NCBI RefSeq assembly: GCF_000381085.1
Contig: NZ_KB905899.1
Location: 1,178,001 to 1,242,000, forward strand
Reading direction: 5' to 3'
Length of the DNA: 64,000 bases
DNA from: Thiomicrorhabdus arctica DSM 13458
Lineage (GTDB): Bacteria > Pseudomonadota > Gammaproteobacteria > Thiomicrospirales > Thiomicrospiraceae
This document shows, in pieces, positions 11,769 through 14,402 of this stretch; within the stretch, counting starts at the first letter, position 1, and each line of letters starts with the position of its first letter. The notes below the pieces were generated by a model. It saw nothing but the letters and a program-made list of their open reading frames with translations, was not told the DNA's origin and did no database searches. A program made the position numbers and the translations under genes.

Positions 11769-12494
11769 TTAGCTGCAAATAGCGAAACCAGCTAAACCTT
11801 GAAGTACTGTTTTATTATGAATGATCAGCTCCTTCTTTTTCCAAGTTACTATGTGATCAGCATGTAATTTGGCTAAAATTCGTGAAACTGTTTCGGGTGT
11901 TAACCCCAGATACAATGCCACATCACGATGTAGGATACCTAACCGGAATTCATCAGAAGCATACCCCCTGCCGGCATAACGCTCAATCATATGCCAAATA
12001 AATTTCGCGACTCTTTGATCTGCATTGCGTCTTGTCAATAGTTCGGAATGCAGTCGACACTCATTGACTTCTTTACTCATCGCTGAAAAAAACTTGTGAT
12101 TGAGATCTGGAACCTGCGTACCTAAATAGCACAGTTGAGCATATGGAAAATGGCAGACGCTTACTGTATCAATCGCAATGGCATTAAATGCATGTACTTC
12201 AGATTGTAATGCGTCAATACCGATCATATCACCGGGAAGGTAAAAACCATGAATAATCTCCTCGCCGATATCAGAGAACGAATAGAGTTTGACGACACCT
12301 GCCCTAATCACGTACAAAGCTGTGAACTTGTCACCTACCATAAAAAGATGTTGGTTCTTCTTCAAGGGCGCTTTACGCTCTACGATTGTATCCAAACGAT
12401 CAATATCTTCTTTGGTTAATCCAGTCGAAAAACATACCTTTTGCAGGCCACAATTTTGACAATTGGCACTGAACCCAGCTTTCAACTCACTCAT
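11769..12494 (-). CDS. fnr: FNR-type oxygen-sensing transcription regulator
   Basis: I chose the ATG at 12494 (MSELKAGFSANCQNC), giving 241 residues. An in-frame ATG seven codons upstream is less likely. The N-terminal cluster is C12-x2-C15-x5-C21, with a fourth cysteine C114 (VSVCHFPY), as in the oxygen-labile [4Fe-4S] FNR. A CRP-type cyclic-nucleotide-binding fold follows (FMVGDKFTALYVIRAGVVKL). The helix-turn-helix has LYLGLTPETVSRILAKLH, whose E-x-x-S-R matches FNR recognition of TTGAT-N4-ATCAA. It controls microaerobic or anaerobic genes. I found no clear FNR box in the adjacent gap. Confidence 0.9.
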   Translation of the reverse strand: MSELKAGFSANCQNCGLQKVCFSTGLTKEDIDRLDTIVERKAPLKKNQHLFMVGDKFTALYVIRAGVVKLYSFSDIGEEIIHGFYLPGDMIGIDALQSEVHAFNAIAIDTVSVCHFPYAQLCYLGTQVPDLNHKFFSAMSKEVNECRLHSELLTRRNADQRVAKFIWHMIERYAGRGYASDEFRLGILHRDVALYLGLTPETVSRILAKLHADHIVTWKKKELIIHNKTVLQGLAGFAICS

Positions 12495-13070
12495 AATCCA
12501 ACCTATAAACCACAAAAATCATCTTTTTTAGTTTTTTTGTTTTTAGTAGAAGAAGGGATTGTAGCGTACTTACCAAGTTTGGCCTACCTATCTGTAGAGT
12601 AATTTTAATGACGCCTTGTTGAATCAAAAAAATCAACCTCTCATAGAGCGACTTGATAAACCAATTGTACTTAAAATATTTGTAAAATTCTATTTGATTA
12701 ATTTTTAAGCAACTTAATATTTATTGGCTATTTTAAAGAACTTAAGCGCCTTTTTATCTATTTACACACAAAGTTATCCACAGCTTTTGTGGAAAAGACA
12801 TTGATATTTTTATATAGGGGCATAAAACAATCAACACTCCTACTAATAACACAGTTTCAACAAGTTATATCAATAACATAAAGCTATTAATAGATTTTAA
12901 AATTAAAATTAGACAAAATTATGTCAAGCCTTTTTTTGGATTATTCACTTTTTATTTCAGAATAGCCAAATTCATCAAAACTCACTGCCTATGGTAAAAT
13001 TATCACTTATTTAACATTTTATAAAATAAGCACATTAAACTATCATCTCAGTATTTACAAAAGGCTTCAT
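12495..13070. other. Long AT-rich gap between fnr and the kinase-Rieske gene
   Basis: This region separates two divergent genes and holds no convincing reading frame. It contains oligo-A/T tracts (12520-12545, 12925-12950) and one perfect DnaA-box-like nonamer TTATCCACA at 12774-12782. An AAAGG ribosome-binding site precedes 13071. The length suggests complex regulation or binding of nucleoid proteins, but no defined operator is visible. Confidence 0.5.
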
Positions 13071-14270
13071 ATGGCAAAGATTCTAGGTATCGGCAACGCT
13101 GTTTTAGACATAATTCACACGGTTCCACATTATCCTCATGAAGATGAAGAGATCCGTGCATTTAAAAAATCCATCACCTCGGGTGGTAATGTCAATAACT
13201 CTTTATATGTATTAAATCAACTGGGTCACAATACGGCTATTTGCTCAACAGTCGCAGCAGACAGTGAAGCCAAACTGCTCTTGGCAGATTTAAAAAAGCG
13301 AAATATCAGTACTGCTTATGTTCAAAAATTTATTCAAGGGTGCACACCCAGCTCATCTGTAACGCTCAATGCACAAAGTGGCCATCGCAGTATTGTGCAT
13401 TACCGTGACTTACCTGAAGTAACCTTTGATTATTTTGCCAAAATAGAAATTGAAGAGTACGACTGGTTACATTTTGAAGGGCGTAATTTAGGTAACTTGC
13501 CCGGCATGCTAAATATTGCTAAGACCTTTTTGACTAACCAACCGATCTCATTAGAAGTAGAAAAGCCACGCGACGGTATTGAAGCTATGATTCCACTTGC
13601 CAACCTCGTTATCTTTTCACATCATTATGCCCAAGCGAAAGGCTTTAATGATGGCCATGCCTTGCTGTCTGAAATACAGAAAATAACAACTCACTCAAAC
13701 CTCGTCTGCACATGGGGTGATCAAGGCGTCTGGTACGCTTCTCCAAATGGAGAGGTACATCATATTCTAGCCGAAGCCGTTAACCCCGTTGTAGATACCT
13801 TAGGGGCTGGTGACACCTTTAATGCAGGATTGATTCACTCTCTTATAGAAGGCCATTCATTAACCGAATCGGTCAATCGTGCGAATAAACTGGCCGCACA
13901 AAAATGCCGGCAGTATGGTTTGGATAACCTCATGGAAGTTAAACATGCCGATAAACCATTAGCCAACATTAAGCAATTGAGTAATGCCAAAACTCTAACA
14001 GTTAATTCGGGAACACGATCGGTTATTCTGATTAAGCACGGAGACTCTGTAAAAGCCTACCTCAATAACTGTCCACATCAAAATGTACCTCTGAATGAGG
14101 CCTATAAGATTGATGTAAATCCTTTTGAAAAGACAATGAAATGCTCAGTACATGACGCCTTCTTCAATATTGAAGATGGCCTTTGTATTGAAGGACCTTG
14201 TTGGAATGAAGCACTAGAAACCATTGATATTCACATCGACGACAAGGGTAATATTTTTCTGGGTAGCTGA
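13071..14270 (+). CDS. Ketohexokinase-like PfkB kinase fused to a C-terminal Rieske [2Fe-2S] domain
   Basis: This protein has 399 residues. Residues 1-290 are a PfkB/ribokinase-family sugar kinase with clear likeness to ketohexokinase: GNAVLDIIHTVPHYPHEDEE, ITSGGNVNNSLYVLNQLG, HFEGRN, SLEVEKPRD, and the anion hole with catalytic base DTLGAGDTF (D242 to D248 region). Residues about 308-397 are a Rieske-type ferredoxin domain: C334-P-H336 and C358-S-V-H361 (C-x-H, 21 residues, C-x2-H), then F-N-I-E-D-G and EGPCW. All four [2Fe-2S] ligands are present. The junction is in one continuous frame with no frameshift sign. The substrate is unknown; fructose or another ketose is a guess from the kinase half. 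It faces fnr across a long gap. Confidence 0.85.
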   Translation: MAKILGIGNAVLDIIHTVPHYPHEDEEIRAFKKSITSGGNVNNSLYVLNQLGHNTAICSTVAADSEAKLLLADLKKRNISTAYVQKFIQGCTPSSSVTLNAQSGHRSIVHYRDLPEVTFDYFAKIEIEEYDWLHFEGRNLGNLPGMLNIAKTFLTNQPISLEVEKPRDGIEAMIPLANLVIFSHHYAQAKGFNDGHALLSEIQKITTHSNLVCTWGDQGVWYASPNGEVHHILAEAVNPVVDTLGAGDTFNAGLIHSLIEGHSLTESVNRANKLAAQKCRQYGLDNLMEVKHADKPLANIKQLSNAKTLTVNSGTRSVILIKHGDSVKAYLNNCPHQNVPLNEAYKIDVNPFEKTMKCSVHDAFFNIEDGLCIEGPCWNEALETIDIHIDDKGNIFLGS

Positions 14271-14321
14271 TTTTGCGAATTTGACTTGAATTGGATAGAA
14301 ATAATCATAGATAAATATAAA

Positions 14322-14339
14322 CTGACCAGGCCTGGTCAG
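14322..14339. repeat. Dispersed palindrome, copy 2 (intergenic, perfect 18 bp)
   Basis: CTGACCAGGCCTGGTCAG is perfectly self-complementary. It lies between the convergent kinase-Rieske gene and rlmB. It has no flanking T-run, so it is not a typical rho-independent terminator. Confidence 0.85.
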
Positions 14340-14402
14340 CTTATAACATTAGCTTCTTAAGCGTTAATAAATCCTTCAAAAAAGCAGATAACCACTGATT
14401 AC

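Follow-up and report, generated by a model that had tools for sequence, protein, structure and literature searches.

In Thiomicrorhabdus arctica DSM 13458, a ketohexokinase-like sugar kinase and a Rieske domain are encoded in one uninterrupted reading frame, situated in a 64,000-nucleotide stretch of the genome (here called the window; Table 1). The fusion is conserved throughout the family of this organism. It goes back to neighbouring genes, probably coupled in translation, that formed part of an older gammaproteobacterial operon and became one. The explanation that we favour, tentatively and at slightly less than even chances, is that the product would be a ketose kinase of the ketohexokinase (KHK) type carrying a Rieske domain whose cluster tunes the kinase or links it to a redox reaction within its pathway.

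No paper on the pairing of such a kinase with a Rieske domain, on the recurring gene pair or on the Rieske subfamily with an additional cysteine pair was found in the part of the literature that was covered, and the combination is provisionally regarded as undescribed. Both domains belong to textbook families; it is their combination that seems to be new. A sugar kinase of the type known from animal fructose metabolism would here be tied to an iron-sulfur cluster, in bacteria living largely on CO2 and reduced sulfur. Since the two genes recur as neighbours across many gammaproteobacterial families and appear to have been fused more than once, they offer a well-defined lead, simple to test, towards a redox-linked sugar pathway or a redox-controlled kinase that has yet to be described.

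Structure of the fusion gene

The initial annotation had described a single frame holding an intact PfkB kinase and a C-terminal Rieske domain with four cluster ligands, and both parts of this description proved correct. The PfkB profile (Pfam PF00294) matches residues 1-287 with 118 bits against a cut-off of 25.8 (E 5e-34), and the Rieske profile (PF00355) matches residues 296-379 with 41.8 bits against 20.3 (E 1e-10). The kinase motifs GGN and DTLGAGDTF (residues 242-250) are at the positions given, as are the ligands C334, H336, C358 and H361. An AlphaFold2 model of the full protein reached a pLDDT of 92 and a pTM of 0.74, the mutual placement of the domains being uncertain. Structural alignments of the full model span residues 1-291, and the Rieske half (residues 293-399) was searched as a separate model.

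Table 1. Features of the fusion gene and its upstream neighbour (positions in the window)
Feature	Position	Strand	Remarks and basis
KHK-like kinase/Rieske fusion gene	13071..14270	+	single open frame, 399 codons
Ketohexokinase-like PfkB domain	13071..13931	+	residues 1-287; Pfam, phmmer against PDB, structural superposition
D13, counterpart of the fructose-contact residue Asp15 in human KHK	13107..13109	+	alignment to KHK
GGN (38-40) and N43, counterparts of KHK Gly41, Asn42 and Asn45	13182..13199	+	alignment
GAGD (245-248), anion hole and catalytic base D248 (KHK Asp258)	13803..13814	+	alignment
Start of variable linker	13932..13955	+	residues 288-295; conservation profile
Rieske [2Fe-2S] domain	13956..14207	+	residues 296-379; Pfam, predicted fold
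First ligand pair, C334-P-H336	14070..14078	+	invariant in alignment
Second ligand pair, C358-x2-H361	14142..14153	+	invariant in alignment
C372 and C377, additional cysteine pair of the DGxCxxGPC motif that marks the Rieske subfamily	14184..14201	+	invariant
FNR-type regulator gene, N-terminal C-x2-C-x5-C	11769..12515	-	divergent, upstream; neighbour kept in most of the family

Conservation within the family

The recurrence of the fusion in related genomes, which had been named as a check, was confirmed in 38 of the 38 family genomes searched (37 sampled genomes, including that of T. arctica, and one further genome, G331). Carriers belong to Thiomicrorhabdus, Hydrogenovibrio and Thiomicrospira, among others. 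In the sampled genomes, several of which consist of a single contig, the match runs along the protein, with identities mostly of 47-71%. Two frames are broken: one in a fragmented metagenome-assembled genome (G007, loci L004/L032) and one within a run of T (G019, locus L029), the latter probably due to a sequencing error. These two breaks are what could be cited for the view that an assembly or sequencing error had joined two genes. However, an intact fusion, matched over its full length in many independent genomes of the family, several of them in one contig, rules such an artefact out.

Within the fused family, mean conservation is highest in the Rieske core (residues 331-378; 91%), lower in the kinase (75%) and lowest in the linker (56%), residues 288-315 being the least conserved part of the protein. 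All of the best-conserved 48-residue stretches fall on the Rieske core.

The kinase half

Membership in the PfkB family is evident from the profile match above the curated cut-off together with the GG motif and DTxGAGD (residues 242-248). Among PfkB kinases, ketohexokinase is the closest to this half by solved fold as well as by sequence, so that the designation as ketohexokinase-like in the initial annotation is well founded. In a phmmer search against PDB the best matches are all ketohexokinases, with E-values from about 1e-49 (3e-49) to 1e-46, followed by sulfofructose kinase at 2e-14. The model superposes on human KHK with 1.4 Å over 288 residues at 35% identity (Z 41); with other PfkB kinases, Z does not exceed 35. 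In human KHK, fructose is directly contacted by Asp15, Gly41, Asn42, Asn45 and Asp258 (PMC2651755). All five residues are kept in the fusion protein, as D13, G39, N40, N43 and D248. Across the 91 kinases compared, D13, G39, N40 and D248 are found in every sequence and N43 in 90, with or without a Rieske partner. Because these contact residues are kept, activity as a ketose C1-kinase is likely.

Animal ketohexokinases (human 2hqq and 6ul7) thus resemble the kinase half in the fold over 288 residues, the five fructose contacts and the GAGD anion hole, but they end where the linker begins and have no Rieske domain. Sulfofructose kinase YihV and the ribokinases share the fold (Z about 31-35) and the PfkB motifs; they differ by an identity of only 16-25%, by Z values below that of KHK and, again, by the lack of a Rieske domain. 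The genome of T. arctica further encodes one class II aldolase and two additional PfkB proteins.

The Rieske half

The assignment to the Rieske family (PF00355) is based on the profile match above the cut-off, the C-x-H and C-x2-H ligands and a predicted Rieske fold. Loss of the ligands in relatives would have spoken against the domain, but C334, H336, C358 and H361 do not vary across the aligned family, and a [2Fe-2S] cluster is accordingly predicted from the ligand pattern. Two further cysteines that the initial annotation had not mentioned, C372 and C377, are equally invariant and lie in the motif DGxCxxGPC. With the exception of one copy truncated by a contig end, every fused or adjacent partner listed has the four ligands and the two extra cysteines, and the ligand pairs are 21 residues apart in most copies. 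Rieske proteins with DGxCxxGPC also occur as stand-alone proteins of about 110-130 residues. By these sequence features the Rieske half is a member of a subfamily without a name, defined by the ligands and DGxCxxGPC, which gains its first candidate partner in the kinase.

The PDB entries matched by the separate model of this half (pLDDT 92), at about 20% identity, are ferredoxins of the Rieske type and soluble Rieske proteins. Aromatic-dioxygenase ferredoxins (1fqt, 3gce) and T4moC have the C-x-H...C-x2-H pattern and the fold (TM about 0.8) in common with it. In contrast to them, the domain described here has 21 residues between the ligand pairs and the DGxCxxGPC cysteine pair, is fused to a kinase and occurs in a genome without a ring-hydroxylating oxygenase. 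Rieske proteins of the bc1/b6f complexes and the small subunit of arsenite oxidase also share ligands and fold, whereas the domain of the fusion has neither membrane anchor nor signal and its extra cysteines are placed elsewhere. The loop cysteines of the bc1/b6f Rieske proteins are of the CTHLGC/CPCHGS type, which is absent from the Rieske domain of the fusion.

Two named functions were rejected by their profile scores. As a dioxygenase ferredoxin subunit (HcaC, AndAb and others) the domain scores 26 bits, far below the NCBIfam equivalog cut-off of 150, and as the nitrite reductase small subunit NirD it scores 19.1 bits against 74.65 for TIGR02378; NirB is encoded elsewhere in the same genome. 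No match to the alpha subunit of ring-hydroxylating oxygenases (PF00848) was detected in this genome, which is 99.95% complete, and therefore the Rieske half is probably not an oxygenase ferredoxin here. Only one other Rieske protein is encoded in the genome, in a frame of 209 codons that is, judged by its size, probably of the bc1 type.

From gene pair to fusion

Relatives outside the family do encode the two halves as separate genes, as the initial annotation had considered in its suggested refutation. The assembly error that was to follow from this did not: where both genes occur, they mostly adjoin on one strand and often overlap by 4 nt, and the separate genes therefore reflect the origin of the fusion and do not refute it. 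In a survey of 369 gammaproteobacterial genomes, the KHK-like kinase was found in 102 and the Rieske subfamily in 142. Both genes are present in 59 genomes, compared with about 39 expected for independent occurrence when the relatedness of the genomes is ignored. They adjoin in 39 of these 59 (39 of the 102 genomes with the kinase), always on the same strand and in 38 of 39 cases with the Rieske gene downstream. The 4-nt overlap in many adjoining pairs suggests translational coupling. Each gene also occurs without the other: a Rieske gene of this subfamily is missing from 43 of the 102 genomes with the kinase, and the kinase is missing from 83 genomes with the Rieske gene. The adjacency is kept across many families. 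Over the adjacent pairs, kinase and Rieske distances correlate with r 0.60, a value reached in none of 2000 permutations, the species tree being uncontrolled; this is as expected for long co-inheritance. A sample of the phylum yielded only 2 of 398 genomes, but as the genomes in the listed part of this sample all belong to the same class, it has little bearing on the spread beyond Gammaproteobacteria.

The single-frame form is also found outside the family of T. arctica: G181 and G090 have it, as do three genomes of family f158. On the kinase tree the fusions lie in separate parts, and the fused state requires four changes, at least two of which are forced by well-supported branches; the tree thus favours repeated fusion. 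With a smaller set of sequences an AU test did not reject a single origin (p 0.215). The fusion probably happened two to four times, and the linkers of the fused lineages vary in length and sequence.

Fused proteins beyond the family are encoded at L094-L097 (G181, G397, G303 and G193). In those of family f158 (L095-L097) the first glycine of GAGD is replaced by alanine, giving AAGD, and FEGRN by FEARA; kinase activity may be altered in these proteins.

Possible functions of the fusion protein

The evidence supports a functional tie between kinase and Rieske protein, which is reflected in the conserved adjacency, the overlapping genes, the repeated fusion and the full conservation of the ligands. 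A redox-sensing or redox-coupled module is the leading reading, albeit a guess. The kinase half would phosphorylate a ketose at C1, the Rieske half would hold a [2Fe-2S] cluster, and the redox or assembly state of this cluster would either tune the output of the kinase or link this output to a redox reaction within its pathway. In human KHK, Cys289 packs on the base of ATP (PMC2651755). Its counterpart in the alignment is C279, some ten residues ahead of the linker. By analogy with KHK, the Rieske tether would thus depart from the kinase near the nucleotide site, and it is physically plausible that the redox state influences the binding of ATP or the closing of the lid. That the state of the cluster, together with the conserved cysteine pair, switches sugar phosphorylation in a redox- or iron-gated ketohexokinase is the boldest reading and rather unlikely. 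If true, it would give the Rieske domain a regulatory role outside electron-transfer chains that was recruited repeatedly in gammaproteobacteria.

A partnership specific to this kinase is weakened by the occurrence of each half alone and by the kinase sequences themselves. None of the alignment columns separates Rieske-linked from Rieske-free kinases beyond chance (top value 0.254; 95% permutation limit, 0.266; 91 kinases), and hence nothing in the kinase points to a docking surface co-adapted to the Rieske protein. The lack of co-adapted positions also fits a Rieske domain that serves as electron carrier for another enzyme, tethered through a shared operon or pathway, with a kinase that works independently of the state of the cluster. 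We consider this possible and nearly as likely as a control of the kinase by its cluster. It agrees with the frequent occurrence of the Rieske gene without the kinase in a similar neighbourhood, and with the fold, which is the one known from ferredoxins and soluble subunits of the Rieske type. It suffers from the lack of an evident acceptor: PF00848 is missing from the genome, the 209-codon protein is the single other Rieske protein, and none of the genes that recur next to the pair in the inspected clusters encodes an oxygenase. Improbable, in our view, is a near-neutral fusion, in which the loss of a stop codon between two overlapping genes put their unrelated activities on one chain. Pairs with a 4-nt overlap or a gap of a few bases fuse easily, and a linker that differs between the fused lineages and is the least conserved part of the protein would suit such an event. 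However, the fusion persists in an entire family and is probably of repeated origin, and a near-neutral event leaves unexplained why the separate genes stay together in so many families.

Genomic neighbourhood

In the family of T. arctica the fusion gene stands alone between the divergent FNR-type regulator gene and the convergent rlmB-rnr genes. Control by the divergent fnr-like gene was rejected, as no FNR-box-like site with up to two mismatches occurs in 12516-13070. This gap is AT-rich and about 550 nt long (about 530-600 nt in several relatives), and it contains no Rfam family and no tRNA. Between the fusion gene and rlmB a 13-bp inverted repeat at 14316-14345 is probably a terminator.

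Elsewhere, the pair and the lone Rieske gene share neighbours: a large protein with cNMP-binding, rhodanese and FGE-sulfatase domains, a SnoaL-like protein, and a BASS or ABC-2 transporter. The neighbours point to no named pathway. The large protein (L092:2332-7164 and similar) has about 1500 residues, with two cyclic-nucleotide-binding domains, a rhodanese domain, a long coiled coil and a C-terminal FGE-sulfatase domain, and its gene immediately precedes many of the genes for the kinase or the Rieske protein. Where the kinase gene stands without a Rieske partner, the gene before it more often codes for a zinc-ribbon-like membrane protein and the gene after it for a pentapeptide-repeat protein. 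At L049, L106, L109, L116, L124, L128 and L129 the Rieske-free kinase gene often directly precedes the pentapeptide-repeat gene, often with an overlap of 1-4 nt, and at most of these loci a gene for the zinc-ribbon-like membrane protein lies before or near the kinase.
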